DNA of 53,126 bases from Bradyrhizobium sp. (GTDB lineage: Bacteria; Pseudomonadota; Alphaproteobacteria; Rhizobiales; Xanthobacteraceae), in assembly GCF_028868675.1 (NCBI RefSeq), contig NZ_JAGWUA010000006.1, positions 1 to 53,126 on the forward strand, read 5' to 3'. Each line of letters begins with the position of its first letter. Within the stretch, counting starts at the first letter, position 1. The translations under genes were made by a program, and so were the position numbers. This document shows, piece after piece, positions 11,058 to 41,673 of the stretch. Below the pieces are notes generated by a model that was not told the DNA's origin, ran no database searches, and worked only from the letters and a program-made list of their open reading frames with translations.

Positions 11058-11097
11058 GCTCCACCTCGACCTCTCGCGCGGCGTCGGACCGTGTTCG

Positions 11098-11610
11098 TCA
11101 GATTTCCTTGCCGCGCTTGCGCATCTCTGCGCGGAAGGCGCCCATCACGGTCTCGGTGAAGTTCTGCGCCCAAGAATTGAGGTACTGCATGCTGAGCCCG
11201 ATGGCCTTGGGCTCGTTGTTGATCAGCTTCTGGCCGAGCGGCGACTTGTAGAAGGTCACGAGATCCTTGAGCTCCTGCTCGGTGAACTCGCTGGCATAGA
11301 CCTGGGCCATGCCCTCGCCGATCTCGCTTTCACGGCCGGAGAGCTGCTTCGCGACGATCGGCGCGACCTCGTTCAGATCCTTCTGGTAGTTGAGGTTCTG
11401 CTGGATCAGCGTGACCTTGGTCTTCTCCACCATGCCCGGCACGGCGTTGGCGTACATCGCGCTGGCGTTCTTCAGCGTCAGGATCTCCTTGGCCGCCGCG
11501 ATCGCCGCCGGAGACGGCTTCGGAGGCTGCTGCGCGGCCGCAGGCAGGGCGCCGAGAACCAGTCCCAGCGCGAGGCCGGCGGCGGGCAACATCTTCAATA
11601 CGCTCTTCAT
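11098..11610 (-). CDS. Exported DUF2059 protein
   Basis: A 170-residue protein with a Sec signal peptide (MKSVLKMLPAAGLALGLVLG..., cleavage near AAAQQ). The C-terminal half carries the DUF2059 signature: YASEFTEQELKDLVTFYKSPLGQKL. Proteins with this domain are periplasmic and of unknown function. The start at 11610 is chosen because AAGGAG lies 8 nt upstream; a longer frame begins inside rpiA. It lies 20 bp after the rpiA stop and 40 bp before gor, so the three genes are probably co-transcribed. Confidence 0.85.
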   Translation of the reverse strand: MKSVLKMLPAAGLALGLVLGALPAAAQQPPKPSPAAIAAAKEILTLKNASAMYANAVPGMVEKTKVTLIQQNLNYQKDLNEVAPIVAKQLSGRESEIGEGMAQVYASEFTEQELKDLVTFYKSPLGQKLINNEPKAIGLSMQYLNSWAQNFTETVMGAFRAEMRKRGKEI

Positions 11611-11630
11611 TCCTAGTCTCCTTTGGCGGC

Positions 11631-12329
11631 TCACCGCCGTTCAACCACGCGGATTCCCTCGCCCCCCGCCAGAACGGCCGAGCTGGCCAAGCCGATGAAC
11701 AGCCCGTGCTCAACCACGCCGGGGATCGCACCGAGCGCCCTGGCGAGCCGCGCGGGATCCTCGATCCGGCCGAGATGGGCATCGGCGATCCAGTGGCCCC
11801 CGTCGGTGACGAAAACGTGGCCGTCCCTGGACTTGCGGAGCGCCATTTGCCCGGAAACGCCGCATTCTGCAAATGCCTTGTCCATCGCCCGCCGGGTCGC
11901 GCCGAGCCCGAAGGGGATCACCTCCACCGGCAGCGGAAAGCGGCCGAGGGTTGCGACCCATTTGGTGTCGTCGGCGATCACGATCATGCGATCGGACGCC
12001 GCCGCCACGATCTTCTCGCGCAGCAGCGCGCCGCCCCCACCCTTGATGAGGTTGAGCGCGGGATCGATCTCGTCGGCGCCGTCGACGGTGAGATCCAGGC
12101 GGTCAATCTCGTCCAGCGTGGTCAGCGGCACACCGCAGCGCGCGGCGTCCGCGCGGGTCGCCTCCGAGGTCGGCACCCCGATCACCTTCAGCCCGGCGCG
12201 CACGCGCTCGCCCAGGAGCTCGACGAAATGCCTGGCGGTCGAGCCGGTACCGAGCCCGAGCTGCATGCCGTCGCGCACCTCTTCCAGGGCGCGCGCCGCG
12301 GCCTGTCGCTTCAACTGGTCCATGTTCAC
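11631..12329 (-). CDS. rpiA: Ribose-5-phosphate isomerase A
   Basis: A 232-residue cytosolic enzyme that interconverts ribose 5-phosphate and ribulose 5-phosphate in the pentose phosphate and Calvin pathways. Motifs seen: [11 protein letters not shown] (25-35, phosphate binding), DGADEID (83-89, catalytic aspartate region), and [11 protein letters not shown] (96-106) with the catalytic glutamate E105. Length and motif spacing are normal for RpiA. It is divergent from the phosphoglycolate phosphatase gene across a 141-bp gap containing two dyads; both genes serve sugar-phosphate metabolism. Confidence 0.96.
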
Positions 12330-27553: not shown

Positions 27554-27976
27554 GTTGATTTTGCAGACTTTCCCGCGGGGCGATGCTGGGGCTGAGCTCT
27601 CGGGCCTGATCTATAGCCTATCCGCCCATTGTCAAACAGGCGGCGGGCCGGATTCGAAACACGCGGTTCAACCCCATGCACAGTGGGCAAGCATCTGACG
27701 CGACACGAATTTCTTTTTTGTCGAAATATGACTTGACTCGTCGGGCAAATCAGGGGCATGATGGCACATTCCACAAATCCGAATAACGACCGCGGCGCGC
27801 GATGAGTCCGCAACCGACGACGCGCTCACGCAATGGGACCGGGATGGTTTTGGCGCCTTCGCCACCGCCGACGGTACGGGTTCCATCGACAAATCGGATG
27901 ATTCGTCGCCCTCGCGAATATTGCCTTGGCAGGCCAACCCCTGTGGTTTTTTGACGAAGATCAGAGGAGATGCGCT
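27554..27976. other. 423-bp intergenic region between dusA and the PEP-CTERM gene
   Basis: This is a divergent gap. TTGACT (27733-27738) and CATGAT (27757-27762), 18 bp apart on the plus strand, are a weak promoter candidate for the PEP-CTERM gene, leaving a leader of about 200 nt. I found no convincing gene, tRNA or strong terminator. A 50-codon frame at 27802 lacks support. Confidence 0.4.
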
Positions 27977-28645
27977 TTGAGGATCCCATCCATCCTGGGC
28001 AGTGTTGTTCTGGCTGTCGCTTTGAGCGTCGGTGTCGCGCAGGCTTCCACCGTCAACGTCGCACTCTCAAGCGACGGGGCAAGCTTCGTGAGCGCAACAT
28101 CCCAGATCTTCTCCAGCAGTTCACCGTGCTGCGGCGGTTTCGTGAACGGTGGCTTGACCACGGCGCAAGACAATCTGCTGACGACGACCCCGATCCCGTG
28201 GCTTGCCAACGGCGACGAGCGCTTCATCTTCGACGATAACGACAGCGTCGCCTCTCTCATCATCAGGTTGGGCAGCATCAGCACGCTCGTCAGCTTCGGT
28301 GCCACCTTCAGCGCGACCGATCGAATTCCAGGGCTGTTCTCGGTAGCCACGTCGCTGGATGGCGTTCACTTCACGTCCGTCGGAACGTTGCTCAACCCGA
28401 ATTCATCGTTCAGCGGCGGCAATTCCACCCTCGTCACGACGGCGCCTCTCTCGGCATTGTACGTCGAATACTCTTTCGGCTCTGCTACTGGCACCAACGC
28501 GTACGGCGCCGGCGTCAGCGAAGTTTTCGCCTCTGTCGCAGGGGTCCCCGAGCCCTCGACCTGGGCAATGATGATGCTCGGCTTCTGCGGCCTCGGCTTC
28601 ATGGCGTATCGGCGGAAGAAGCAGATCGTGGCCGCACTCGCCTGA
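27977..28645 (+). CDS. PEP-CTERM sorted extracellular protein, TTG start
   Basis: A 222-residue exported protein. The TTG at 27977 follows AGGAG at the right distance and yields a clean signal peptide ([20 protein letters not shown]..., ending AQA). The middle is serine-, threonine- and glycine-rich beta-type sequence without a family I recognise. The C-terminus is a PEP-CTERM sorting tail: [24 protein letters not shown], i.e. PEP motif, membrane helix, basic end. Such proteins are handled by an exosortase and linked to exopolysaccharide matrices. No exosortase gene is in this window. The CC pair in SPCCGGF is unusual for an exported protein. Confidence 0.85.
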
Positions 28646-28666: not shown

Positions 28667-29782
28667 TCACGCCTTCGACGCGGCCGGGCGGGCGTCCGGC
28701 TGCGCCGCGCCGGCGCGGTCGACGAGCAGATCGGTCAGGCCCGCGCCCAGCCACATGCCGCCGAGCACGAGCCAGGCCGTCAGCGCGAACACGGAGGCGC
28801 CGGTGACGCCGGCGCCCACCGCGCAGCCGCCGGCGAGCATGGCGCCAAAGCCCATCAGCACCGCACCCAACAGGTAGCGGCGCATGCCGAGGCCGTCGGA
28901 AAATCCCTCGAGCTTCAGTTCGTGCGCGAGCGCCGCGGCGACGAACGAGCCGAGGAACACGCCGGGAATGATGCCGAGGTCGAAGCCGAGCCTGATCTGC
29001 GAGGAGTTGAGCACCAGCATCAGCAATTCGGCCGACGGGCCGGAAAAGGTCAGGCTCTTCAGCGTCACCGGGGCGAAGGACGACTGCGACAGCTGATAGG
29101 TGAAGAGCCAGCCGGCGACGACGGCCGCTCCCGTCGCGAGCGCCGACAGGATCAGGCGCCGCGGCAGGCGGCTGCGAAAGGCGAAGGCGAGGCCCGCGAT
29201 CAGCCACAGGCCGCCGAAGGCGAGCTTCTCCGGCGTGCCGCCGCCGAACACCGCCATGATGTCGCGCGACGGTCCGCCGTCGACCAGCCACAGATTGGTC
29301 AGCCATTCGCGCGCGGGCGACAGCAGGCCGTGCCAGGCGGCCTGCGCCGTCACCGCGAAGACGAGACCGGACAAGAGCGCGCGCAGGTTTCCGTTGGCCG
29401 ACAGCACGAGCAGCCGGCTCGCGCAGCCGCGGGCAAGGATCATGCCGCAGCCGAACATCACGCCGCCGATCATGGCGCCGGAAATGCTGCCCTGCTGCGC
29501 GAGCTGGCGCGCCTCGGAGACATCCAGCCAGCGGATCGCGACGAGCGCCTGCGTGCCGACGAGCGCCGCGGCGAAGGTCAGCAGCCAGACCGCAAGGCGC
29601 GGCCCGCCCTCGCCGCGCGAGAATTCGACCGCGGCGGCGCGCAGGCAGAACCGGCTCCTCTGGGCGAAGAAGCCGAAGAGGCCGCCGACCACGAGGCCGC
29701 CGAGCCAGGAGAGCCGGTCTTCACCCAGGAGATCGATGACCGATGTCAGCACGGCGCGCTCAGTTTTCGTCAGAGCCGGCAA
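28667..29782 (-). CDS. YeeE/YedE-family sulfur-compound transporter (sox-distal)
   Basis: Up to 371 residues and about ten membrane segments. It has the conserved cysteine motifs of the YeeE/YedE (TsuA) thiosulfate-uptake family: FAQRSRFCLRAA, GCGMILARGCASR and AGGCAVGAGVTG. It should move thiosulfate or another sulfur species across the inner membrane. The longest start is a TTG at 29782 with no clear ribosome binding site; a GTG at 29752 is an alternative. It lies 53 bp past the second DsrE-like gene on the same strand, closing the sox locus, while a second family member (soxT) closes the other side. Confidence 0.87.
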   Translation of the reverse strand: MPALTKTERAVLTSVIDLLGEDRLSWLGGLVVGGLFGFFAQRSRFCLRAAAVEFSRGEGGPRLAVWLLTFAAALVGTQALVAIRWLDVSEARQLAQQGSISGAMIGGVMFGCGMILARGCASRLLVLSANGNLRALLSGLVFAVTAQAAWHGLLSPAREWLTNLWLVDGGPSRDIMAVFGGGTPEKLAFGGLWLIAGLAFAFRSRLPRRLILSALATGAAVVAGWLFTYQLSQSSFAPVTLKSLTFSGPSAELLMLVLNSSQIRLGFDLGIIPGVFLGSFVAAALAHELKLEGFSDGLGMRRYLLGAVLMGFGAMLAGGCAVGAGVTGASVFALTAWLVLGGMWLGAGLTDLLVDRAGAAQPDARPAASKA

Positions 29783-29835: not shown

Positions 29836-30279
29836 TCAGGGCCGCAAGTACGCAAAGCCCTGCTGCTGCAGCTCCGCAATCCGCACCACGCCGCCCTTCT
29901 CGGCCACCACGAAGCCGGGGATGAGGTCGTCGAGCTTGACGCCCTGCGCCTTCATGGTGTTGGCGCAGGCGTCGAAGCCGACGCCTTCCTGCGCCAGCTT
30001 CTGCATCGCCGCCACGGTGTGATCCTGGGCGGCGAGCGCATGGAACGCACGCAGCGCCGGGCCGTGAACGACGAGCCTGATGTCGGCCTTGCCGGGTCCG
30101 CCGACGCCATCGACGTGGTTCTGCAGATTGCCGAGCACGAAGACGACACGATCGGCATCCGCGAGGTGATAGACGACGCGCTGGCGCGCGGCCGGTTCGG
30201 CGGCCGCAGCGGCGCCGCCTGCGCCGAACGCCCCCAACAGTCCGGCAAGGCCCGCGCGAAGCATGGATCGACGCTGCAT
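29836..30279 (-). CDS. Exported DsrE-like sulfur-carrier protein (A)
   Basis: A 147-residue DsrE/DsrF-like protein with an export signal containing a twin arginine (MQRRSMLRAGLAGLLGAFGA...). The conserved cysteine of the family is in FDACANTMKAQG, which in DsrE-type proteins can carry a persulfide. The fold pattern (VVYHLADADRVVFVLGNLQNH, ADIRLVVHGPAL, GVVRIAELQQQGFAYLRP) is complete. DsrE proteins are normally cytosolic, so an exported version beside sox genes suggests a periplasmic persulfide relay; that is inference. A strong AGGAGG precedes the start. It is 8 bp after the hydrolase gene. Confidence 0.85.
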   Translation of the reverse strand: MQRRSMLRAGLAGLLGAFGAGGAAAAAEPAARQRVVYHLADADRVVFVLGNLQNHVDGVGGPGKADIRLVVHGPALRAFHALAAQDHTVAAMQKLAQEGVGFDACANTMKAQGVKLDDLIPGFVVAEKGGVVRIAELQQQGFAYLRP

Positions 30280-30287
30280 GTCTCCTC

Positions 30288-31190
30288 CTATCGTGTCTGC
30301 TTGATGAATTCGGCGATGCGATCGGCCGCGTCCTCGGCAAAGAGGTCGCGGAAGAAATGGTCGGCGTCCTCGATGGTGTCGAGCTGCACCCGGCCGCCGC
30401 TCGCGCCCGCGAGCTTCGCGAAGGACGTCGCCACATCAGGCACGACCGTGTCCTTCGTTCCCGCCAGCACGAGCACGGGCATCTTCAGTTGCGCCACCAG
30501 CGCCACGGTGTCCTGGCCGGGATCGGCCGCGTAGAACGAGGCAAAGGCGCGCGCCGTCACCGTGGCGTCGCGGCAGTAGATGAAACCGGGCACGGTCATC
30601 CATTCGCCGCCGCGCCCGGCCGCAACGGCCCTGGTCGCCTGCTCCAGCAACGGCTCGAGCGGCCTGCCGTAGGTTGCGGCATAGGACGCGCGAAGGCTCG
30701 CTTCGGCCGTGGCGGTGACCGGCGCAAGCAGTACGGCGGCCGCGACCGCGCCGCCGTTCGCCGCCAGATAACGCGCTACCTGGTTGCCGCCGCGCGAATG
30801 GCCGAAGGCGTAGATGCGCCGCGACAGGCCCTTTGCGTGTCGCACCCAGGCATCGATTTCGGCTGCGGCGTCATCGGTGACGTAGTCGTGGCGGGTCGCG
30901 CAGTCGTACATGCCCTTGCGGCGGTCCTGCCCGAGCGCCAGCGTGTGGGCGAGCGAGGCGATGCCGCGCTCGGCCAGCGCCTGCGCCAGCGTCCGGATCA
31001 CGTCCATGTCCTTGTGCGCCAGCGTGCCGTGGGTCATCACGACCAGCGGCGTGTCGGCCTGCATCGACGCCGGCGTGCGCAGCGTGGCGAGAACCGTGCG
31101 GCCGCCGACCGACAGCTCGATGTCCTGCTCGGCAGCGGCAGCCGTTCCGGCCAACGCGAGCAGGATCGAAAGTCCCACCAACCATCGCAT
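30288..31190 (-). CDS. Exported alpha/beta hydrolase in the sox operon
   Basis: A 300-residue protein with a Sec signal (MRWLVGLSILLALAGTAAAA). The alpha/beta-hydrolase landmarks are the oxyanion segment VVMTHGTLAHKDMD, the nucleophile elbow FGHSRGGNQ, the acid in LAGTKDTVVPD and the histidine in IEDADHFF. Two cysteines (MYDCATR and FIYCRDA) could form a disulfide. The substrate is unknown. The gene is embedded between two exported DsrE-like genes (gaps 14 and 8 bp) and downstream of soxCD, so it is almost surely expressed with the sox genes. A role in cleaving a sulfur-containing ester or thioester is possible but speculative. Confidence 0.85.
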   Translation of the reverse strand: MRWLVGLSILLALAGTAAAAEQDIELSVGGRTVLATLRTPASMQADTPLVVMTHGTLAHKDMDVIRTLAQALAERGIASLAHTLALGQDRRKGMYDCATRHDYVTDDAAAEIDAWVRHAKGLSRRIYAFGHSRGGNQVARYLAANGGAVAAAVLLAPVTATAEASLRASYAATYGRPLEPLLEQATRAVAAGRGGEWMTVPGFIYCRDATVTARAFASFYAADPGQDTVALVAQLKMPVLVLAGTKDTVVPDVATSFAKLAGASGGRVQLDTIEDADHFFRDLFAEDAADRIAEFIKQTR

Positions 31191-31204
31191 CAGTCGCCAT
31201 CTCC

Positions 31205-31669
31205 CTAGGGACGAACGATCGTCCAGTGCTTTTCCGCAAATTCCATCAGGGCGGCGACGCCGACCTGGGTGACGTTGACGCCCTCGATCAGCGGCGGCCG
31301 CCTGCCCTCCTTCACGCCAAGCGTCTCCAGCGTATTGCCGCAGGCGATGAAGCTCACATTGGGCATCGATTTCAGGAAATTGGTCATGCGCTCCTTCACC
31401 GGGGAGCGGTCGTCGAGCAGCATGTCGAGGCCGCCGTTGAAGGCGATCACGACGATCTCGACGTCCTCGCCCTGCCCCGAATAGTGCCGCGAGACGTTGG
31501 CCGCGACATCGAGCACGGCGCGCATCTTGGCGGGCTCGTCATCGCTGATCTGCAGCACCAGGCGGTGCGGATCGGCGGCGAAGGCCGGGATCGCGAACGC
31601 CGCGACGAGCAAGCCGGCGGCCGCACAAGCCCTAAGCAATGCGCGGCGGCTTGCCCCGCCGCGGTTCAC
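31205..31669 (-). CDS. Exported DsrE-like sulfur-carrier protein (B), GTG start
   Basis: A 154-residue DsrE-like protein with an export signal (MNRGGASRRALLRACAAAGL, cleavage near AFAAD). The family cysteine lies in FIACGNTLETLGV, the same C-x-N-T arrangement as the other DsrE-like protein of this operon. The rest follows the DsrE fold (RLVLQISDDEPAKMRAVLDVA, VEIVVIAFNGGLDML). The GTG at 31669 overlaps the soxD stop by 4 bp (GTGA), evidence of translational coupling to soxD. The two DsrE-like proteins may work as partners, as DsrE and DsrF do. Confidence 0.85.
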   Translation of the reverse strand: MNRGGASRRALLRACAAAGLLVAAFAIPAFAADPHRLVLQISDDEPAKMRAVLDVAANVSRHYSGQGEDVEIVVIAFNGGLDMLLDDRSPVKERMTNFLKSMPNVSFIACGNTLETLGVKEGRRPPLIEGVNVTQVGVAALMEFAEKHWTIVRP

Positions 31670-32367
31670 TCCACGCCCCGCGATTTCTTGTCCTTGTCTT
31701 CCGGCGTCACGTCGATGGCGGCGGCACGGGCGGTGATCTTCACCGGCGCGATGCAATTCTTCATGCAGGGATCCTTCTGCCAGAACGATTTCTCCGCGGC
31801 GGCGCGGTCGTCCATGACGAAACCCTGCTCGTTCGGCATCTTGATCGCGGCGAGATTCTTGTTGTTCAGCTCGAAATCCTGGTCGGTGATGACGTCGTTG
31901 AGATAGAGGACGTAGGCGACCAGCGCGTAATATTCGTCGACCTTGAAGGCCTCCGCGTTGCCGTAGGGCATGGCGTGGCGGACGTAGTCGAACACGGTCG
32001 AGGCATAGGGCCAGTAGGAGCCGACCGTCTTCACCGGGTTGTCGGAGGTCAGCGAGCCCTTGCCGCCGGCGAGCACGGGCCAGCGGCCGTTGCCCTCGCC
32101 GAACTCGCCGTGGCAGGATGCACAATTGTCCATGAACAGCTTTTCGCCCTGCGCGACCGTGCCCTTGCCCTCGGGCAGGCCCTGGCCGTCCGGACGCACG
32201 TCGATGTCCCAGCCGCGGATCTCCTCCGCCGTCGGGGCGCGGCCGATGTCGTAGCGCGGAGCGGACTTTGCCTCCGTTTTGGCGTCCGGCTTGCTCTGCG
32301 CCAGCGCCGGGGAGGCGATCGCGCCGGCGAGCAGCGCCGCGGCGACGAGCTTAGGCAACTTCGACAT
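31666..32367 (-). CDS. soxD: Sulfane dehydrogenase cytochrome c subunit SoxD, short monohaem form
   Basis: A 233-residue periplasmic cytochrome c with a Sec signal (to about residue 23). There is a single haem motif CASCH (82-86), and the likely axial methionine is M133 in HAMPYGN. The classic Paracoccus SoxD is longer and has two haems; no second CxxCH exists here. A C-terminal DPCMKNC segment (C201, C205) may form a disulfide. It partners the molybdenum subunit SoxC, with which it overlaps by 17 bp, and passes electrons from sulfane oxidation. The start at 32367 gives a proper signal peptide. Confidence 0.88.
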   Translation of the reverse strand: MSKLPKLVAAALLAGAIASPALAQSKPDAKTEAKSAPRYDIGRAPTAEEIRGWDIDVRPDGQGLPEGKGTVAQGEKLFMDNCASCHGEFGEGNGRWPVLAGGKGSLTSDNPVKTVGSYWPYASTVFDYVRHAMPYGNAEAFKVDEYYALVAYVLYLNDVITDQDFELNNKNLAAIKMPNEQGFVMDDRAAAEKSFWQKDPCMKNCIAPVKITARAAAIDVTPEDKDKKSRGVE

Positions 32368-33619
32368 TCTCGACCTCACCATTGGCCTGCACGTGCCAGG
32401 TCTGGATGCCATTGTTGTGATAGATGGAATTGACGCCGCGGATCTTGCGGAGCTCGGCCTTGCTCGGCTGCACGTAGCCGGTCTCGTCCTGCACGCGCGA
32501 TTGCAGCAGGAGCGGCTCGCCATTCCAGTCGAACTCGTAGTAGAAGCGCGCCAGCGCCTTGTCGAGCACGGGCCCGTCGAGCCGCGCCGGCCGCCAGTTG
32601 CGGCCGCCGTCGAGCGAGACGTCGACGCGCTTGACCTTGCCGTTGCCGCTCCAGGCGAGCCCCGAGATGATGGTAAAGCCCTTGCCGTGCCTGATCGGCG
32701 CCTGCGGACTCGGGCTCGTGATCACGGATTTGGCGTCCATCGCCCAGGTGAAGCGGCGCGCCTTTCCGCTCGGCAGGAGGTCGGTGTATTTCGAGGTCTC
32801 CTCGCGGGTATGCCAGGGCTGGTCGCCGACCTTGATGCGGCGCAGCCACTTGACCCAGAGATTGCCCTGCCAGCCCGGAACGACCAGCCGCATCGGATAG
32901 CCCTGCTCGGGATAGAGCGCCTCGCCGTTCATCTTGTAGGCGATGATGCAGTCGTCGAGCGCCTTCTCGATCGGCAGGCTGCGATCCATCGCGGCGGCGT
33001 CCGCGCCTTCGACCAGCAGCCACTTGCCGTTGGTCTTGACGCCGGCCTCCTCGAGCAGCGTGCGCAGCGACACGCCGGTGTACTGCACGCAATGGATCAT
33101 GCCGTGGGTGAACTGGCAGCCGTTGAGCTGGGCGCCGCGCCATTCCATGCCGGAATTGGCCGCGCACTCCATGAAGTGGATCCGGTTGACGCGCGGATAG
33201 CGCTTCAGCTCCTCCAGCGTCAGGATCAGCGGACGCTCGACCAGGCCATGGATCATCAGGCGATGGTCGGCCGGGTCGATCTCGGCGATGCCGCCGTGAT
33301 GGCGCTCGAAGCAGAGGCCGTTGGGCGTGATGATGCCTTCGAGCTCGTGCAGCGGCGTGAAGCTGACGGACGATTCGCGCGAGGCGGTCAGCCATTCGAC
33401 GTCGCGGCGGACGACGTCCTTCTCGAATTTCGAGGGCTTGCCGTAGGGCCGCACCGCGACGCCCTCGCCGAGCGCCCTGGTCCATTCCGGCACGTTGGGC
33501 GGCTGGTTCGCGGGATTGCCGCCGGCCCCCGCCGGCCTTGCCAGCATCGTCGCGGCAACGCCTGCGCCTGCGGCGAGGAAGTTGCGGCGGGACTGGCCTT
33601 GCTCGTCCATCTTCGACAT
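32351..33619 (-). CDS. soxC: Sulfane dehydrogenase molybdenum subunit SoxC
   Basis: A 422-residue sulfite oxidase-family molybdoenzyme with a Tat signal (QSRRNFLAAGAGVAATML). The molybdenum-ligating cysteine is C152 in HFMECAANSG. The dimerisation domain occupies the last 120 residues (VKRVDVSLDGGRNW). In the Sox system SoxCD oxidises the outer sulfane sulfur left on SoxY, yielding six electrons. It requires molybdenum cofactor, whose pathway gene moaA is elsewhere in this window. The start at 33619 lies 5 bp after soxB; an in-frame GTG at 33628 would overlap soxB. Confidence 0.95.
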   Translation of the reverse strand: MSKMDEQGQSRRNFLAAGAGVAATMLARPAGAGGNPANQPPNVPEWTRALGEGVAVRPYGKPSKFEKDVVRRDVEWLTASRESSVSFTPLHELEGIITPNGLCFERHHGGIAEIDPADHRLMIHGLVERPLILTLEELKRYPRVNRIHFMECAANSGMEWRGAQLNGCQFTHGMIHCVQYTGVSLRTLLEEAGVKTNGKWLLVEGADAAAMDRSLPIEKALDDCIIAYKMNGEALYPEQGYPMRLVVPGWQGNLWVKWLRRIKVGDQPWHTREETSKYTDLLPSGKARRFTWAMDAKSVITSPSPQAPIRHGKGFTIISGLAWSGNGKVKRVDVSLDGGRNWRPARLDGPVLDKALARFYYEFDWNGEPLLLQSRVQDETGYVQPSKAELRKIRGVNSIYHNNGIQTWHVQANGEVENVEVA

Positions 33620-33624
33620 CGCTC

Positions 33625-35316
33625 TCACGCTCCGGTCACCTTGACGGCGCGGTTCGGCTCGAGCCGAACCGTCTTCTGCCGCGTCAAATAGTTCGCAACG
33701 ACGTCCCAGATCGGCGGCCCCTCCGTGCCCTCGTTGACGCTGGCCCAGCCGGCCACCTGGTATTCCCTGTTCGGGTCGATCGGCGCGCCGGTCCTGGCGA
33801 GCTGCATGTCGGAGATGCGGCTGCCTTGCGGCCTGGCGATGTCGATCGCGTAGGACAGCCCGCCGATCCGCACCATGTCGCCGCCCTGCTGATAGTAGGG
33901 ATCGACGTTGAAGAGGTTGTCGGCGACGTCCTCGATGATCTCCTTCAGCCGTGCGCCCGTCATGCCCATGCGGTAGACGGCCGGGTAGGTGATGGCGGTG
34001 GCGTTGGTGACGTCCTCGAAGGTGATGTCCTGGCCCGGCAGCACGCTGGTGCCCCAGCGGAAGCCCGGCGACAGCGCGATCTCGGCATCGCGCTCGGTCA
34101 GCAGCGCCTGGCAGATCAGATCGTCGAAGGTGCCGTTGAAATTGCCGCGCCGGTAGAGCAGCGAGTCGGTCTTGCCGAGCACGCGCGAGAGATCGGCAGC
34201 AAATGGCTTGCGCACCTCGGCGATCTTCGCGGCCATCTCCGCATCCGGCGTGATGATGTCGGAGAACAGCGGGATCAGCTTGTACCGGAACGCCTTGACC
34301 TCGCCGTCGCGGACGTCGAGATCGAGCCGGGACACGAATTTTCCGGACGAGCCCGACGCGATCAGCAGCGTCTTGCCGACCTTGACAGCCTCGGGCAGCG
34401 CGTCATGGGTATGGCCGGTCAGGATGACGTCGATGCCCCTGACGCGGGAGGCCAGCTTGCGGTCGACGTCAAAACCGTTGTGCGACAGCAGCACGACGAG
34501 CTGCGCGCCGCCCTTGCGCGCCTTGTCGACCTGCGCCTGGACGTCCTCCTCGCGCACGCCGAACGACCAGTTCGGGATCATCCAGCGCGGATTGGCGACC
34601 GGCGTATAGGGAAAGGCCTGACCGAGCACCGCGATCTTGACGCCGCCGCGCTCGATCGTGGTGGAGGCCTCGAACGCCGCCTCGTTCCATTCGGTGTCGC
34701 GGATGTTGAGGCCAAGGAAGGGGAAGCCGAGACCTTCGATCGCCTGCTTGACGCGCTCGGTGCCGTAGGTGAATTCCCAGTGGCCGGTCATGGCGTCGGG
34801 CTTGAGCAGGGCCATGCAGTCGATCATGTCCTGGCCGCGCGTCTTCAGCGACGACCACGAGCCCTGCCAGGTGTCGCCGCCGTCGAGCAGCGCGACCTTG
34901 TCGCCGCGCTCGGCGCGGATCGCCTTGATCACGGTGGCGGCGCGATCGAGCCCGCCGATCTTGCCGTAGGTTTTTGCCAGCGCCTCGAAATCCTCAGAGG
35001 TCAGTGCGTAGGCCGCCGACGAGCCCGGCGCGACGCCGAAGCGGGCGAGGAACTCCTTCGCGGTGACGTGCGGCGGCAGCCCCTTGGCCTCGCCGACGCC
35101 GAGATTGGTCGAGGGTTCGCGGAAATAGAGCGGCATCAGCTGGCCGTGGATGTCGGTGACATGCACCAGCGTGACGTTGCCGAGCGGCTCGAAGGCCAGC
35201 AATTCCTTCTCGCTCAGGCGCTGCTGGGCGAAGGCCCGCGACAGGCCGGCACCGGGGCCGGCCGTGAGCGCGGCGGTCGCCGCGGCAACCTGAATGAATT
35301 CACGGCGCGAGATCAT
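33625..35316 (-). CDS. soxB: Thiosulfohydrolase SoxB
   Basis: A 563-residue dimanganese hydrolase of the 5'-nucleotidase/metallophosphoesterase superfamily, which removes sulfate from SoxY-bound thiosulfonate. It has a Tat signal (MISRREFIQVAAATAALTAG). Metal and active-site segments are VTDIHGQLMPLYFREPS (D55, H57), LDGGDTWQGS, GHWEFTYG (the SoxB-specific replacement of GNHE), LSHNGFDVDRKLA and LTGHTHDALPEA. Length and motifs are diagnostic of SoxB. It is in the middle of the operon with gaps of 25 bp (soxA) and 5 bp (soxC). Confidence 0.97.
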   Translation of the reverse strand: MISRREFIQVAAATAALTAGPGAGLSRAFAQQRLSEKELLAFEPLGNVTLVHVTDIHGQLMPLYFREPSTNLGVGEAKGLPPHVTAKEFLARFGVAPGSSAAYALTSEDFEALAKTYGKIGGLDRAATVIKAIRAERGDKVALLDGGDTWQGSWSSLKTRGQDMIDCMALLKPDAMTGHWEFTYGTERVKQAIEGLGFPFLGLNIRDTEWNEAAFEASTTIERGGVKIAVLGQAFPYTPVANPRWMIPNWSFGVREEDVQAQVDKARKGGAQLVVLLSHNGFDVDRKLASRVRGIDVILTGHTHDALPEAVKVGKTLLIASGSSGKFVSRLDLDVRDGEVKAFRYKLIPLFSDIITPDAEMAAKIAEVRKPFAADLSRVLGKTDSLLYRRGNFNGTFDDLICQALLTERDAEIALSPGFRWGTSVLPGQDITFEDVTNATAITYPAVYRMGMTGARLKEIIEDVADNLFNVDPYYQQGGDMVRIGGLSYAIDIARPQGSRISDMQLARTGAPIDPNREYQVAGWASVNEGTEGPPIWDVVANYLTRQKTVRLEPNRAVKVTGA

Positions 35317-35341: not shown

Positions 35342-36166
35342 TCAGTTGCGCACGGAGGGCGTCTCGACCGGCAGCCCGATGCCGCGCCAGGCGACGTAGA
35401 CCTCGAGCGCGAGGAACTCGTCCGACAGCGGCTTGTAGGGCTCGGCGCGCACGTCGAACATGCAGCCCTCGAAGCGTTCGTGCAGCGGCACCAGGCGCTG
35501 GTCGCGCAAACGGTAGGTCGGGAAGCCGTTGGTCTGGCCCTGGCTCAGGAAGTCGGCGCGCATGAACTTGCCGTTGTTGCGCTCGTGGCAGGAGGCGCAG
35601 GCGAGATCGAGCTGGCCGACCCGGGTATAGTAGATCTGCTTGCCGCGCTCGAACCACGGCGACATCGGCCCGTCGGTCTTCACCGCCACCGGCATGCCGC
35701 GCGACTGGAAGCGCACGAAGGCGGTCATGTCGGTCAGCGCCTGCGACTTGAACGCCCAGGGCTCCGCCTTCATCTTCTCGGTGCGGCAGATGTTGATGCG
35801 CTGCTCGAGATTGACCGGCTTCTTCAGCCTGTCGTCCCATTTGGGCATGGCGGCGCCGACGCCCTTCATGGTCGTCTCCGCCTCGCCGTGGCAGCTCGCG
35901 CAGGACTTGCCCTCGCTGCCCTCGACCTTCTTCCAGGCGTCGGCGGCGCGCTCCACCGCGAGGAAGCCCGGATTCTCCAGGTCGTCGTCCTGCAGCGCGC
36001 GCGTCTCCTTGCTGCGGAACTCGTAGCCGGAGATGATGGTCTTGAAGACGTGGCCGGGCGGCGCAGGAATGCCCTTGCGTTCGGCCTCCTGCGCAGAAAT
36101 GCCCGCGCCGGTCAGGACGATTGCCGCCGCGGCGACGGCGAACAGGCCAACGTAACGAGACGTCAT
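35342..36166 (-). CDS. soxA: Dihaem cytochrome SoxA
   Basis: A 274-residue periplasmic cytochrome and catalytic half of SoxAX, which joins thiosulfate to the SoxY cysteine. Two CASCH haem motifs occur at 89-93 and 190-194. The catalytic cysteine ligand is C235 in FEGCMFDVRAEPY, which becomes a persulfide in known SoxA proteins. C127 (INICRTE) matches the disulfide-type cysteine of the dihaem class. A Sec signal covers about residues 1-25. The start at 36166 is preferred over 36199 because GGGAG lies 9 nt before it. Confidence 0.96.
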   Translation of the reverse strand: MTSRYVGLFAVAAAAIVLTGAGISAQEAERKGIPAPPGHVFKTIISGYEFRSKETRALQDDDLENPGFLAVERAADAWKKVEGSEGKSCASCHGEAETTMKGVGAAMPKWDDRLKKPVNLEQRINICRTEKMKAEPWAFKSQALTDMTAFVRFQSRGMPVAVKTDGPMSPWFERGKQIYYTRVGQLDLACASCHERNNGKFMRADFLSQGQTNGFPTYRLRDQRLVPLHERFEGCMFDVRAEPYKPLSDEFLALEVYVAWRGIGLPVETPSVRN

Positions 36167-36195
36167 CCGACCACTCCCTCGAAGCCCCAGCGGCA

Positions 36196-36522
36196 TCATG
36201 CCTTGAGCGCGATCTTCTCTTCGGCCGTGATCACCGTGCCGTCATCGTCGGTCCAGGAGAACTTGAACGTTCCGGCCTCATCCACCTTCGCATTGAACTG
36301 GATGTAGGGATTGGCGGAGATCGCGGGCTCCAGCGCGCAGGCGAACAGCGGTTTGCCGTTGAACTCGCAGGCGAACTTGTTGATGATCTTGCGCGGAATG
36401 GCCTTGCCCTGCGCGTCCTTGCGCTGGCCGGATTCCATGACGTGCGAGACCAGGGTCTTGATCTGGATGACGTCGCCCTTGGCCGCTTCCTTGGGAAGCT
36501 TGATGCGCGGTTTGTCTGCCAT
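36196..36522 (-). CDS. soxZ: Sulfur carrier complex subunit SoxZ
   Basis: A 108-residue immunoglobulin-like protein without a signal peptide, exported as a complex with SoxY through the SoxY signal. The SoxZ wording PRIKLPKEAAKGDVIQIKTL, HVMESGQRKD and ISANPYIQFNAKVDEAGTF is clear. It binds SoxY and shapes the swinging-arm docking surface. The start at 36522 has AGGAG 9 nt upstream. Gaps to soxY and soxA are 20 and 29 bp. Confidence 0.96.
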   Translation of the reverse strand: MADKPRIKLPKEAAKGDVIQIKTLVSHVMESGQRKDAQGKAIPRKIINKFACEFNGKPLFACALEPAISANPYIQFNAKVDEAGTFKFSWTDDDGTVITAEEKIALKA

Positions 36523-36542: not shown

Positions 36543-36995
36543 CTAGCCGCCGCAGCCGCCGATGGTGACCTTCACGGTCTTCTGCTCCGTGAACAGGCTG
36601 CCGTCGCTCATCTTCGCGATCGCCACCACGTTCTGGGTGGCCGCGAGCCGGATCCGGATCGAGGCCTCGGCCTTGCCCGAGAGCGGCGTGAACATCAGCG
36701 TCGCGACGCCGGCGTTCGGGTTGCCGTCGGCGAGGATCATGACCTCCTTGACGTAGGCCTGCTCCGTCATCGGGCTCTCGACGCTGAGCGACAGCGGCAC
36801 TGTGTTGCCGTTCTCCGCGATCTCCGGCAGGTCGAGCGAGATCTTGCCCTTCACCGGCGCCTTGCCGCCGGTGAATTTCTCGATCCACTTGGCGGCGTCG
36901 TTGGTGACTTGCGCATCGGCCGCCATCGGCATCAGGGTCAGCATGACGAAGCCGCCCCCGAGCGCGAATGCCTGCCGTCGATTGATGGCTTTCAT
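36543..36995 (-). CDS. soxY: Sulfur carrier protein SoxY
   Basis: A 150-residue carrier with an export signal of twin-arginine type (MKAINRRQAFALGGG). It ends in the swinging-arm peptide VTIGGCGG, whose cysteine (C148) covalently holds the sulfur intermediates during thiosulfate oxidation. This C-terminus is diagnostic. Start 36995 has GGAGG upstream. It lies between soxX and soxZ with gaps of 17 and 20 bp. Confidence 0.97.
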   Translation of the reverse strand: MKAINRRQAFALGGGFVMLTLMPMAADAQVTNDAAKWIEKFTGGKAPVKGKISLDLPEIAENGNTVPLSLSVESPMTEQAYVKEVMILADGNPNAGVATLMFTPLSGKAEASIRIRLAATQNVVAIAKMSDGSLFTEQKTVKVTIGGCGG

Positions 36996-37012: not shown

Positions 37013-37456
37013 TCAGTTCAGCGTCTTGAGATAAGCGACGACGTCCTCGACCTGCGCGGCCGTCAGGATCGTCTTGCCGACGAATTCGGGGCGCACCCGG
37101 CTCAAGCCGTCGTTCCGGTAGAACGCGGGCATCACGGTGTCGGCGAAGATGCGCTTGGGGTCGGCGACGATGAGGCGAAGCTGCGCCTCGCTGTAGCGGC
37201 CGGCGACGCCGTCGAGCGACGGGCCGAACTCGCCGTGGAATTCCTCGGACTTCAGGCTGGTGACCTGGTGGCAGGCCAGGCAATTGCCGAGCGTGCGCGT
37301 CAGGAACACCTTCTTGCCGGCGCCCGCATTGCCGGGCGCGCCGGTCAGCGATTTCGGCAGGGAGTCGTTGACGACATCGAGCTTGATCGGCTCCTGCGCG
37401 GAGGCGGCTGCCGCCCACAGACACAATGCCAACGCGGCGACGCGCGAGCGCTGCAT
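37013..37456 (-). CDS. soxX: Monohaem cytochrome SoxX
   Basis: A 147-residue periplasmic cytochrome with a Sec signal (residues 1-20). The haem motif is CLACH (59-63) in RTLGNCLACHQV, and the axial methionine is M109 in DTVMPAFYR. SoxX pairs with SoxA to form the SoxAX enzyme. It is the first gene of the long minus-strand sox operon; a promoter and candidate operator lie in the gap upstream. A GC-rich hairpin sits in its leader just before the ribosome binding site. Confidence 0.96.
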   Translation of the reverse strand: MQRSRVAALALCLWAAAASAQEPIKLDVVNDSLPKSLTGAPGNAGAGKKVFLTRTLGNCLACHQVTSLKSEEFHGEFGPSLDGVAGRYSEAQLRLIVADPKRIFADTVMPAFYRNDGLSRVRPEFVGKTILTAAQVEDVVAYLKTLN

Positions 37457-37584: not shown

Positions 37585-38190
37585 CTAGCCGCTGGTGGCG
37601 AGGAATTCCCGGAACGAGCCGCGCTCATAGGCGCGCTCGCGCACGAAGCGGAACATCGCCAGGAAATGCTGCGGCTTGAGATAGCCGGGCGCGCGGGTAA
37701 CCTCCCGCGCCATCGGCTCTTTCGCCTCGATGCCGGCAGCCTGCGGCGGAAAGAACTGGAACGTCGGGGTGAAGCGGATTCCGTACTTCTGGGCGAGGTC
37801 CTTCTCCGACAATTCCTGCTTGTCGAAATCCGTAACCTTGCGGGAGCCGATCAGGTTGAGCTGCAGCACCTCGAAATTGTCGCGGATGTAGCTCGCGATC
37901 GCTTCGTCGGCAAAGTTCACCAGATGGGTCTCGCGGCAATAGGGGCAGCCGCGCAGCTCCCACATGATGACGAGGCGCTTGCCGCTCGCGGCCGCGCTCT
38001 CCAGATCCTCGCGCAAGTCGAGAAAACTCTGCAGGAACCAGGGTTCGTGGTAGAGGCCGTCCTCGCCGGGCGCAGGCTCGGCACGCGCTTCGCCGCCCGC
38101 TGCGACGACCGCAGCCCCCGACGTGAGCGCGAGGAAGCCGCGACGCGAGAACAGCGGGGCATGCATTCGAGAAGCTTGCGTGTCGGTCAT
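37585..38190 (-). CDS. soxW: Periplasmic thioredoxin SoxW, possibly leaderless mRNA
   Basis: A 201-residue thioredoxin-fold protein with a Tat-type signal (SRRGFLALTSGAAVVAAGG). The active site is ELRGCPYCRETH with C82 and C85. Together with SoxV and SoxS it keeps Sox cysteines reduced. Two starts are possible (38190 and 38166); neither has a ribosome binding site. A promoter with TTGTCA-N16-TATCAT would start transcription almost at 38190, which suggests a leaderless message or use of 38166. It ends 128 bp before soxX on the same strand, and soxX has its own promoter. Confidence 0.88.
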   Translation of the reverse strand: MTDTQASRMHAPLFSRRGFLALTSGAAVVAAGGEARAEPAPGEDGLYHEPWFLQSFLDLREDLESAAASGKRLVIMWELRGCPYCRETHLVNFADEAIASYIRDNFEVLQLNLIGSRKVTDFDKQELSEKDLAQKYGIRFTPTFQFFPPQAAGIEAKEPMAREVTRAPGYLKPQHFLAMFRFVRERAYERGSFREFLATSG

Positions 38191-38236: not shown

Positions 38237-38959
38237 TTGCGCTGCATCATCGCTCTGCTGGCATGGCTCGTCGCAACGGGAGCCGGCCTCGGCGCCGAGG
38301 CCGGAAAGCCCGTTGATTTCCCGTCCGCCGTCCAGTCGGTCATGGCCAATCTGCGCACGGCGGCAAGCTACGCCCGCACCGGCAACATCGCGCTCGCCCA
38401 GATGGAGACCGAGGAGGCGCAGACCGCGTGGCAGGCGCTGCAAGACGGCGCAACTGCCGCTCCCCTGCCCCCTTACGCGCCGGCGGCGCTGCAGGATTTT
38501 CTCGCCAGGGGCCGCGCGCAGCTCAAGGGCATAAATGACGCGCTCGGCGGCGGCGACAACGTCGCGGCGGGCCGCGACCTCTTCGCGGTCCGCAAATCGT
38601 TCCATGATCTCCGGCGCAAATCGGGACTCTACGATCTCGGCGACTGCGTCTTCGAGATCGCGCCCGCGATGGAGAGGCTGCGCGCGGCTGCGACGGGCTT
38701 TGGCGAGCAGCCGGCCGGCGCACGCGCCGAAGACACCGTTTCCGCCGCCGCCGCGTTTCGCGACCGGCTGCAGCGCTGCAACGATTGGGCGAGCGCCGAG
38801 ATCTCCGCGCAGCCCGAATTCCGCCGGCTGATCGACGGCGCGACCGCCAGCGCAGGCGAGATCGCGCATGCGGCGATGGCCGGCGACGCCCCGCTGGTAC
38901 ATCGCTATCTGATCGAGCTGCAGTCCTACGCGCAGTTGCTCGACTTCCGCTTCGGCTAG
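38237..38959 (+). CDS. Exported helical protein of unknown function in the sox locus, TTG start
   Basis: A 240-residue protein with a Sec signal (MRCIIALLAWLVATGAGLGA). It is almost entirely amphipathic helix. The segments VMANLRTAASYARTGNIALAQ and QLKGINDALGGGDNVAAGRD are laid out like the four-helix bundle of cytochrome c', but there is no CxxCH; the two mature-chain cysteines are in LGDCVFE and LQRCNDW. I do not recognise a family. The TTG start has AAGGA 9 nt upstream. It is divergent from soxW, shares a 46-bp gap with the candidate SoxR operator, and ends 2 bp from the convergent soxV, so sulfur-dependent expression is likely. Confidence 0.75.
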   Translation: MRCIIALLAWLVATGAGLGAEAGKPVDFPSAVQSVMANLRTAASYARTGNIALAQMETEEAQTAWQALQDGATAAPLPPYAPAALQDFLARGRAQLKGINDALGGGDNVAAGRDLFAVRKSFHDLRRKSGLYDLGDCVFEIAPAMERLRAAATGFGEQPAGARAEDTVSAAAAFRDRLQRCNDWASAEISAQPEFRRLIDGATASAGEIAHAAMAGDAPLVHRYLIELQSYAQLLDFRFG

Positions 38960-38961
38960 CA

Positions 38962-39693
38962 TCAGCCGATGCTGGTCAGTCCGGGGAGGCGCTCCAGCAG
39001 CCACTGCGAGACTGACGGCATCAGGCCGGCGAGGAACGCCAGCCCGGTCGCGACCAGGAACGCGCCCATGGTCTTCTCGACGAGGCCGAGATGCCGACGC
39101 GCCCGGCCAAGCATCGCGACGAAACGGCCGGTGAAGGCGGCCGCGATCAGGAAGGGAATGCCGGTGCCGGCCGAATAGGCCAGCAGCAAGAGCGCGCCCC
39201 GGCCCGCCGTGTCTTCGGATCCCGCCATCAACAGCACCGCGGCGAGGATGGGGCCCGCGCAGGGCGTCCAGCCGAACGCGAAGGCGAGCCCCATGACGAA
39301 GGCGCCCGCCAGCCCCGCCGGCCGGTTCTCGACCTGCACGGTTGCGCTCCGGTAGAGCAGCGGAATCCGGATCAGGCCGAGAAAGTGCAGGCCCATGACG
39401 ATGATCAGGACGCCCGCGACCGTGCCGAGCGCCGACAGATGCGCGGTGATGAAGCGGCCCGCCAGCGATGCGGTCGTGCCGAGCGCGACGAAGACGAGCG
39501 AGAAGCCGGCGACGAAGGCCAGCGCCGCGACCAGCACGCGCGGCCGCAGCTCCGGCCGGTCGGCCGACAGCTCCGTGACCGAAACGCCGGCCATGTAGCA
39601 GAGGAAAGGCGGCACCAGGGGCAGGATGCAGGGCGAGAGAAAGGACAACAGACCGGCGACGAAGGCCGCCCCGAGCGTGACGTCCAGACCCAT
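38962..39693 (-). CDS. soxV: CcdA-family thiol-electron transporter SoxV
   Basis: A 243-residue membrane protein with six segments of the CcdA/DsbD type. The redox cysteines lie in the first and fourth segments: SFLSPCILPLVPPFLCYMAG and FGWTPCAGPILAAVL. It transfers reducing equivalents from cytosolic thioredoxin to the periplasmic SoxW or SoxS. It is read divergently from soxS across a 91-bp AT-richer gap, and convergently with the unknown helical-protein gene. Confidence 0.93.
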   Translation of the reverse strand: MGLDVTLGAAFVAGLLSFLSPCILPLVPPFLCYMAGVSVTELSADRPELRPRVLVAALAFVAGFSLVFVALGTTASLAGRFITAHLSALGTVAGVLIIVMGLHFLGLIRIPLLYRSATVQVENRPAGLAGAFVMGLAFAFGWTPCAGPILAAVLLMAGSEDTAGRGALLLLAYSAGTGIPFLIAAAFTGRFVAMLGRARRHLGLVEKTMGAFLVATGLAFLAGLMPSVSQWLLERLPGLTSIG

Positions 39694-39736: not shown

Positions 39737-39784
39737 AAAGAGGTCGAGAAGTCCAGAAGGAAGTCCACCAGAAGCCTTGCCGTG

Positions 39785-40156
39785 ATGACCCGGTTCACCA
39801 TCCATCTCGCCGCTGCCGCGATTTTCGCGCTGCTCGCAACGACCGCTTCCGCCGCCGAGCTCGTGATGTTCGAGCGCGCCGGCTGCGTCTGGTGCGCGCG
39901 TTTCGACGCCGAGGTCGCGCCGATCTACGGCAAGACCGACGAGAGCCAGGCCGCGCCGTTGCGCCGTGTCGATTTGGGCCGCCCCCTGCCCGCCGACCTC
40001 GCCGGAATCGATCCGGGCGCCTTCACACCGACGTTCGTCGTGCTAGACGACGGACGCGAGATCGGGCGTATTCGCGGCTATCCGGGGGACGCCTTCTTCT
40101 TCGGCCTCCTGGGCCGGATCCTGACCAACGCGGGACCGGCGTCCGGCCGGTCGTGA
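39785..40156 (+). CDS. soxS: Periplasmic thioredoxin-like SoxS
   Basis: A 123-residue thioredoxin-fold protein with a Sec signal (MTRFTIHLAAAAIFALLATT, cleavage near ASAAE). The active site is FERAGCVWCARF with C34 and C37. In known Sox systems SoxS keeps the carrier SoxYZ reduced and active. A GTG at 39782 precedes the ATG by one codon; ribosome binding is poor at both. It leads the soxS-soxR-soxT set and is divergent from soxV. Confidence 0.9.
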   Translation: MTRFTIHLAAAAIFALLATTASAAELVMFERAGCVWCARFDAEVAPIYGKTDESQAAPLRRVDLGRPLPADLAGIDPGAFTPTFVVLDDGREIGRIRGYPGDAFFFGLLGRILTNAGPASGRS

Positions 40157-40175: not shown

Positions 40176-40526
40176 ATGTCACTGCCGAAACTGAAAGAGA
40201 TCGAAGGCTCCGCCGAGCTCGAGCAGATGATCGAGAAGGCGCGCGAGGCCAGCGACATGCTGAAGGCGCTCTCGCACGAATCGCGCCTGCTGCTGCTCTG
40301 CATCCTCGCCGAGGGCGAGAAGTCGGTGACCGAGCTCGAGCAGTTCCTGGGCGAACGGCAGTCGACGGTCTCGCAGCAGCTCGCGCGGCTGCGGCTCGAT
40401 CGCCTCGTCACGACGCGCCGCGACGGCAAGGCGATCTATTACAGCCTCGCCAACGAAGAGGTGCGCAAGATCCTGACCGCCATCTACGACGTGTTCTGCG
40501 AGCCGGTCCGTCGCCGCCGCAGGTGA
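40176..40526 (+). CDS. soxR: ArsR-family repressor SoxR with persulfide-sensor cysteine pair
   Basis: A 116-residue winged-helix ArsR-family repressor. The DNA-binding helix is in GERQSTVSQQLARLRLDRLV and the wing in TTRRDGKAIYYSL. Two cysteines, C42 (LLLLCILAEGEKS) and C108 (YDVFCEP), sit at the positions of the two reactive cysteines of SqrR/BigR-type persulfide sensors, and no metal-binding CxC motif of arsenic sensors is present. It should repress the sox promoters and release them when persulfide links the cysteines. It lies 19 bp after soxS and 73 bp before soxT. It is unrelated to the MerR-type SoxR of enterobacteria. Confidence 0.92.
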   Translation: MSLPKLKEIEGSAELEQMIEKAREASDMLKALSHESRLLLLCILAEGEKSVTELEQFLGERQSTVSQQLARLRLDRLVTTRRDGKAIYYSLANEEVRKILTAIYDVFCEPVRRRRR

Positions 40527-40599: not shown

Positions 40600-41673
40600 A
40601 TGCTGAGTCCTTCGACCATCGCGTTTGCGTGCGGGCTTACCGCCGGCGCCCTGCTCGGCGTCGCCGGCCGGGCCGGCCGATTCTGCACGCTTGCGATGCT
40701 CGAGGATGCGTTCTTCGGATCGGACTTTCGCCGCCTGAAATCCTTCGCACTGGCCGCGGCGGTGGCGCTGCTGGCAACGCAGGCGCTGGCCCGGTTCGGC
40801 ATCGTCGACCTGTCGCGGTCGATCTATCTGACGCCGTCGATCGGGCTCGGCGGCGCCGTCGTCGGCGGGCTGATGTTCGGCGTCGGCATGGCGCTGGTGG
40901 GCACCTGCGGCTTCGGCACGCTGGTGCGCATCGGCGGCGGAGACTTGCGCGCGATCGTCGTCTTCCTCGTGCTCGGTATCTCGGCGCTGGCGACCATGCG
41001 CGGCATCACCGGAATGCTGCGCGTGCTGCTGATCGAGCCGCTGTCGCTGCGGCTGCCCGAAGGCACCAACCAGACGCTGACGTCGCTGCTCGGCCCCGGT
41101 TTCGGCGCGGCCCTCGCCATCTCCATCGCCGCCGCACTGGCGTGGTGGGCGCTCGCCGACGGCAAGCTGATCCGCTCGCCGAGGCTGTTCGCCTCCGGCC
41201 TTGCGGTCGGCGCGGCGATCGCGTTCGGCTGGTTCGCCACCGGCTGGCTTGCGGACGACGAGTTCGATCCGGTCCGCGTCTCGTCGCTGAGCTTCGTCGC
41301 CCCGCTCGGCGACGCCATCCTCTATATCGCCACCTTCTCCGGCGCGCGGCTGAATTTCGGCATCGGCTCGGTCGCCGGCGTCGTTGCCGGCTCGCTTGCC
41401 TCAGCCATGCTCGCACGCGGCTTCCGCTGGGAGGCCTGCGACGACGCGCGCGAACTGAAGCGCCACATGACCGGTGCGCTGCTGATGGGCATCGGCGGCA
41501 TCATGTCGATGGGATGCACCATCGGACAGGGTCTGTCCGCGTTCTCCACCCTCGCGGTGTCGGCCCCGATCGCGATGCTCTCGATCGCCTGCGGCGCGCG
41601 GCTCGGCCTCGAATTCACCATGACCGGCGAATGGCTGCCGGCCGTGCGCCGGCTGTTCGGGGCTTCGACGTAG
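40600..41673 (+). CDS. soxT: YeeE/YedE-family transporter SoxT
   Basis: A 357-residue membrane protein with about ten segments. YeeE/YedE cysteine motifs are GRAGRFCTLAMLEDA, MALVGTCGFGTLVR and MSMGCTIGQGLSAFS. By family and position it is the SoxT transporter for thiosulfate or another sulfur species. GGGAGGA lies unusually close to the ATG at 40600 (almost no spacer), so translation may be weak or coupled. It forms the plus-strand soxS-soxR-soxT set. A second family member lies at the far end of the locus (28667-29782). Confidence 0.88.
   Translation: MLSPSTIAFACGLTAGALLGVAGRAGRFCTLAMLEDAFFGSDFRRLKSFALAAAVALLATQALARFGIVDLSRSIYLTPSIGLGGAVVGGLMFGVGMALVGTCGFGTLVRIGGGDLRAIVVFLVLGISALATMRGITGMLRVLLIEPLSLRLPEGTNQTLTSLLGPGFGAALAISIAAALAWWALADGKLIRSPRLFASGLAVGAAIAFGWFATGWLADDEFDPVRVSSLSFVAPLGDAILYIATFSGARLNFGIGSVAGVVAGSLASAMLARGFRWEACDDARELKRHMTGALLMGIGGIMSMGCTIGQGLSAFSTLAVSAPIAMLSIACGARLGLEFTMTGEWLPAVRRLFGAST

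Follow-up and report, generated by a model that had tools for sequence, protein, structure and literature searches.

A Conserved DsrE–Hydrolase–DsrE–YeeE Gene Block behind soxCD in Bradyrhizobium, a Candidate for Periplasmic Sulfur Hand-Off

Results

Organization of the sox Locus

The window analyzed here, a single contig (G000:C252) of 53,126 nucleotides, contains a complete Bradyrhizobium sox cluster, soxTRS-VW-XYZABCD, of the sox locus I type, with soxXYZABCD and soxR, soxS, soxT, soxV, and soxW gathered in a single cluster. The minus strand carries soxV (CcdA-like, 38962–39693, assigned from position and sequence), a soxW-like thioredoxin gene (37585–38166, from a PF13098 match and the gene call; a longer reading frame to 38358 is possible), soxX (37013–37456; TIGR04485, 88 bits), soxY (36543–36995, whose C-terminal GGCGG was read directly from the sequence), soxZ (36196–36522, recognized by gene order and homology across loci), soxA (35342–36199; TIGR04484, 243 bits), soxB (33625–35316; TIGR04486, 857 bits), soxC (32351–33628; TIGR04555, 657 bits against a cut-off of 420), and soxD (31666–32367, placed by its position downstream of soxC). 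On the plus strand are the gene for a soxS-like exported thioredoxin-fold protein (39782–40156, from a weak Thioredoxin_2 match and its position), soxR, encoding an ArsR-type regulator (40176–40526; PF01022 above cut-off), and soxT, the first YeeE/YedE transporter gene of the cluster (40600–41673; PF04143, 208 bits). In B. diazoefficiens (PMC5748708) the same arrangement is named sox locus I; SoxR represses it, thiosulfate oxidation depends on its soxY1, and genes downstream of soxD go unmentioned in the text consulted. The plus strand also carries, between soxV and soxW, a gene for an exported-looking protein of 240 residues with no Pfam match (38237–38959), which is found at the same place in other Bradyrhizobium sox loci.

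Behind soxD, also on the minus strand, follow the genes for DsrE-A, a DsrE/MTH1491-like protein of 154 residues (31205–31669); a hydrolase of 300 residues (30288–31190); DsrE-B, a DsrE-like protein of 147 residues (29836–30279); and a sulfur transporter of the YeeE/YedE family (28667–29782, the start codon being uncertain between TTG 29782 and GTG 29752). The TGA stop codon of soxD (31668–31666) overlaps the GTG start of DsrE-A in the sequence GTGA, and the genes that follow are separated by 14, 8, and 53 bp. The initial annotation had described the DsrE–hydrolase–DsrE trio directly behind soxD, with this overlap and the first two gaps, and the coordinates agree; but it left out the YeeE gene, a further member of the conserved block. 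The YeeE product scores 166.8 bits against PF04143 (cut-off 27) and 89 against the NCBIfam TsuA model, for which the corresponding value is 400; hence it is not called TsuA. On the minus strand, no terminator-like site was detected from soxD to the YeeE gene, and the spacing suggests that these genes are transcribed together. DsrE-A, the hydrolase, DsrE-B, and YeeE would then make up the 3′ part of a Bradyrhizobium sox operon. A probable PEP-CTERM exported protein, judged from its C-terminal stretch, is encoded convergently with the YeeE gene at 27926–28645 on the plus strand.

The Encoded Proteins

The DsrE fold is clear in the AlphaFold model of DsrE-A (mean pLDDT 88.4). The model matches MTH1491 with a Z score of 18.5, ST0148 with 16.8, TusD with 12.9, and DsrE with 12.6; ten chains of the DsrE family fall between 11.6 and 18.5, and the next unrelated fold scores 6.4. 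With the Pfam model PF02635 (DsrE; cut-off 22.7 bits), DsrE-A remains below the threshold at 16.9 bits and DsrE-B lies above it at 32.1; the assignment of DsrE-B to the family is from sequence only.

Each mature protein has a single cysteine, C110 of DsrE-A in the sequence ACGNT and C105 of DsrE-B in ACANT; the initial annotation had pointed to a candidate persulfide cysteine in a C-x-N-T context in both. C110, N112, and T113 of DsrE-A are invariant among 21 homologues, C110 and T113 are invariant in both of the alignments A2 and A4, and MTH1491 and ST0148 have a cysteine at the same aligned position. The conservation on which that proposal hung holds well in Bradyrhizobium, where the candidate cysteine is kept in 28 of 29 DsrE-A and 28 of 30 DsrE-B sequences. 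The further claim that all three proteins carry export signals would fit the signal-like N-terminal segment that can be recognized by eye in each. An arginine pair occurs within the first 15 residues of every DsrE-A (29/29) and DsrE-B (30/30) sequence read, the signal of DsrE-B in the window being Tat-like. These N termini suggest that DsrE-A, DsrE-B, and the hydrolase are exported.

The hydrolase exceeds the Hydrolase_4 and Abhydrolase cut-offs (Hydrolase_4, 56 bits against 27), and its model (mean pLDDT 93.1) matches known structures with Z scores up to 26.1, feruloyl and cinnamoyl esterases and lipases being closest. Sequence and model together identify it as an α/β serine hydrolase with a putative Ser-Asp-His triad, S132/D247/H278. 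The triad residues and two cysteines, C97 and C206, are invariant in 27 relatives.

Conservation within Bradyrhizobium

When 84,980 species genomes were scanned with a hydrolase alignment, 51 loci were returned, 31 from Bradyrhizobium and 20 from other organisms; the scan started from two motifs and made the linkage of the hydrolase to sox look tighter than it is. The order soxCD–DsrE-A–hydrolase is present in all 31 Bradyrhizobium loci, which were fetched by hydrolase homology. DsrE-B is kept in 30 of them, with only a remnant in L193, and a YeeE gene stands behind the trio in 30. soxD and DsrE-A overlap by GTGA or ATGA throughout (31/31), and with few exceptions the two gaps within the trio measure 10–18 and 8–10 bp. 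Median dN/dS values are 0.245 for DsrE-A, 0.169 for the hydrolase, and 0.128 for DsrE-B. Chance clustering was considered and rejected, given the conserved order, overlap, and gaps in these 31 further loci and the low dN/dS values. Several natural variants occur: serine replaces the DsrE-B cysteine in L196, and frameshifts, possibly sequencing errors, interrupt DsrE-A in L192 and DsrE-B in L199.

Among 146 Bradyrhizobium genomes, the hydrolase is found in 25 and soxB of locus I in 25; the 24 genomes that have both hold them within 6 kb of each other in every case. In 25 of 26 cases the hydrolase adjoins sox locus I; elsewhere in these genomes none was seen. In one genome (G016, L082) the hydrolase is present and soxB is cut by the contig end. 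In another (G392, L257) locus I lacks the hydrolase and reads soxCD–DsrE-A–DsrE-B–YeeE, followed by two half-size YeeE-like genes; the DsrE pair and YeeE can therefore stand without the hydrolase. A search for the trio at soxCD in other genomes, as the initial annotation had proposed, thus upholds a tight linkage to sox within the genus; but the intact trio was seen in Bradyrhizobium only, and the notion that it is a broad system was rejected.

Other arrangements in the genus deserve mention. In strain BTAi1 (L210), the region behind YeeE (10607–12114) contains a rhodanese gene and two half-size YeeE/YedE-like genes; none of these was seen behind the YeeE gene of the window. The genome to which the window belongs encodes a Tat-type paralogue of DsrE-B (56% identity) away from sox (L102, G000:C268:1628–2077), preceded by a 206-residue protein with no Pfam match. 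Elsewhere in this genome, a soxB relative (51%) lies at the edge of a contig (L103, G000:C261) and is followed by another exported DsrE (32% to DsrE-A) and a metallo-β-lactamase–rhodanese fusion, as in L089–L091.

DsrE and Hydrolase Genes at sox outside the Genus

SoxC was found above cut-off in 88 of 297 genomes of the order, and 68 soxC loci of this sample were examined, 57 with soxB within 20 kb and 11 with soxC only. An exported-type DsrE lies in the stretch in 17 of the 57 soxC+soxB loci and in none of the 11 others. The background, an average in which genomes that have sox and genomes that lack it are pooled, is 28 matches away from sox in 61 genomes (252 Mb), or 0.0022 per 20 kb, from which 0.13 loci of 57 would be expected. 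Omission of the window and of seven loci fetched for a DsrE match leaves 9 of 49, which again greatly exceeds the chance expectation. No nearby DsrE was seen in the remaining 40 of the 57 clusters, and the pair is thus not essential to Sox.

The settings of these genes vary. DsrE-A stands alone behind soxD in L088; a DsrE lies in tandem beside YeeE in L092; and a Tat-type DsrE with the motif C-E/D-I-T follows soxCD in L158, L160, L161, L167, L170, L173, L174, and L259. In a second sox type (L089–L091), a DsrE gene lies behind soxB, overlaps it, and precedes a metallo-β-lactamase–rhodanese fusion. Pairs recur as well. A plasmid of Methylosinus trichosporium OB3b carries soxZ–soxB–DsrE-A–DsrE-B–DUF302, without the hydrolase, the two DsrE proteins being 50% and 58% identical to those of the window. 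On a plasmid of Indioceanicola profundi, soxAYZBCD is followed by thioredoxin and hydrolase genes, with both DsrE genes close by on the opposite strand. A plasmid of Sulfurovum mangrovi has a distant pair, DsrE–DUF302–DsrE, beside soxA (L236, 5914–7765), a layout like that of the trio with another gene in the middle. A plasmid search with the Tat-type DsrE gave one distant match. The recurring core outside Bradyrhizobium is the DsrE pair, from which the hydrolase is separable.

Sox clusters hold 15 of the 20 non-Bradyrhizobium loci from the hydrolase scan; of the others, one (L216) lies beside DsrE, thioredoxin, and YeeE genes, and four have no sox genes in view. A profile search over the order, with less bias, found the hydrolase in 20 genomes, at sox in 5; with the other 15 of these 20 carrying it away from visible sox clusters, a sox-specific role for the whole family was rejected. 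In a tree of 46 hydrolases, all sox-linked members except that of Indioceanicola fall in a single clade of 27 rows (support 100/99), 25 of them sox-linked. The sequences thus delineate a sox-associated clade within a wider family of exported hydrolases, with members from Bradyrhizobium, Kiloniellaceae, Pelagibius, Neomegalonema, and Hyphomicrobiales bacteria; no description of such a clade was found in the literature search. The hydrolase is absent from L257 and from Methylosinus, and there are other sox clusters that contain it but no DsrE. It is an accessory, dispensable for the existence of the DsrE pair.

Discussion

The arrangement of these genes suggests, at somewhat less than an even chance, that DsrE-A and DsrE-B are a periplasmic pair of sulfane-sulfur carriers of the Sox system that serves the neighboring YeeE importer. 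C110 of DsrE-A and C105 of DsrE-B would each accept sulfur from SoxYZ intermediates or from free polysulfide, and the two proteins would exchange it and pass it toward YeeE. The transporter could then supply cytoplasmic sulfane sulfur for signaling, for assimilation, or as an overflow when SoxCD is saturated. The exported hydrolase would probably act on a Sox component or substrate and free it of an ester- or thioester-type adduct. Persulfide carriage, the partners, and the direction of flow are what we infer from the setting of the genes. The persulfide relay envisaged by the initial annotation is partly supported, since it would fit the predicted export, the single conserved cysteines, the DsrE fold, and the adjoining YeeE gene.

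Several lines of evidence favor such a carrier pair, which is the most economical of the readings considered. The overlap, the gaps, and the YeeE gene are conserved, the block is tied to sox locus I (25/26), and the pair persists in L257 where the hydrolase is missing. DsrE pairs also occur at sox in Methylosinus, Indioceanicola, and Sulfurovum, and exported-type DsrE genes are found near sox far more often than expected (17/57 against 0.13). MTH1491 and ST0148 share the cysteine. Among DsrE proteins, which have been grouped as DsrE1–5, the cytosolic DsrE3A carries thiosulfonate on a cysteine (PMC4175335, Liu et al. 2014); a sox-adjacent dsrE of Sulfurovum indicum, called periplasmic, is upregulated with thiosulfate (PMC10045233); and sulfur import and SoxR signaling in Hyphomicrobium depend on YeeE-like SoxT proteins (PMC11582611). 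Against the carrier pair, SoxCD permits complete oxidation in the periplasm, so that there is no strict need for import; many sox clusters contain a YeeE gene in any case, which makes the DsrE–YeeE link weak evidence; and the natural variants L192, L193, L196, and L199 must be counted on the same side. A narrower proposal, that the exported DsrE heteropair is a dedicated relay of sulfane sulfur from SoxYZ to the YeeE importer with the sox-associated hydrolase clade as partner, is rather doubtful.

The same genes might instead serve maintenance, the exported DsrE proteins and the hydrolase working with SoxW and SoxS to clear the SoxY cysteine of inhibitory sulfur or other adducts and so keep SoxYZ active, with no delivery to a transporter. 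This seems unlikely, even though the genes for SoxW, SoxS, and SoxV share the cluster and the hydrolase gene lies directly after a thioredoxin gene in sox clusters of other organisms (L213, L220, L221, L233): SoxS is already credited with reactivating SoxYZ, and in Bradyrhizobium it is YeeE, not thioredoxin, that DsrE-B adjoins. It is less probable still that the pair is a buffer that captures polysulfide or persulfide lost during Sox turnover and so protects the periplasm without directed transfer. Exported DsrE paralogues away from sox, also present in Bradyrhizobium, and the DsrE that stands ahead of the metallo-β-lactamase–rhodanese fusion in the second sox type would suit a scavenger; the tight, ordered linkage to soxCD and YeeE, however, suggests a specific partner.

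The occurrence of soxR and soxT in the same cluster raises the question of signaling. SoxT1B of Hyphomicrobium acts in signal transduction to SoxR (PMC11582611), and SoxR represses sox in B. diazoefficiens (PMC5748708); by analogy, the module could send sulfane sulfur via YeeE to the repressor and so report thiosulfate. The cluster already has a soxT in soxTRS, however, and this is the least probable of the alternatives.

The route by which SoxYZ-bound sulfur reaches the cytoplasm and SoxR is stated to be poorly understood (PMC11582611, PMC10451225). A conserved exported-type DsrE pair between soxCD and YeeE offers a concrete, deletable candidate for this step, and the soxD–DsrE–hydrolase–DsrE–YeeE block as a whole appears from its sequence to be a good candidate for periplasmic sulfur hand-off. 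The initial annotation had named the trio its best candidate for an undescribed system. No description of the block was found in the literature searched, which covered few subscription journals, and searches for a periplasmic DsrE and for DsrE with Bradyrhizobium sox gave no match; but sox-adjacent DsrE genes as such are known (PMC10045233, PMC11034169).

Comparison with these and other systems brings out what is distinctive. The DsrE gene of Sulfurovum indicum and the DsrE orf2 that lies between soxB and soxC in some Sulfitobacter clusters, which also have a YeeE orf, both of unknown function (PMC11034169), resemble the present genes in lying in or beside a sox cluster and, in Sulfurovum, in being upregulated by thiosulfate; the conserved soxD-overlapping DsrE–hydrolase–DsrE–YeeE block is not described there. 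The SoxT/YeeE-YedE transporters (PMC11582611) likewise belong to PF04143 and are encoded at sox, whereas the window gene sits behind an exported-type DsrE pair. The Cys-X7-Cys motif of DsrE3A (PMC4175335) does not occur in mature DsrE-A or DsrE-B, with one cysteine each. The esterases Est1E and LJ0536 share the fold of the hydrolase (Z about 25) and the Ser-Asp-His triad, but identity is only about 20%, and the window hydrolase is of the exported type, has two invariant cysteines, and falls in a sox-associated clade. With the cytosolic DsrEFH/TusBCD relay, DsrE-A shares the fold (Z 12.6–12.9) and a cysteine at the start of a helix that follows a central strand, which we take to be equivalent to Cys78. 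No dsrF, dsrH, tusA, or dsrC is among the identified sox-cluster genes around the trio, and DsrE-A and DsrE-B differ from the relay proteins in being of the exported type and encoded in sox clusters. The closest relatives in both fold (Z 18.5 and 16.8) and sequence are MTH1491 and ST0148 (PDB 1l1s and 2pd2), with a cysteine at the same aligned position. These are archaeal single-domain proteins of unknown function that align from their N termini and so have no signal peptide, whereas the Bradyrhizobium proteins look exported and are linked to sox.
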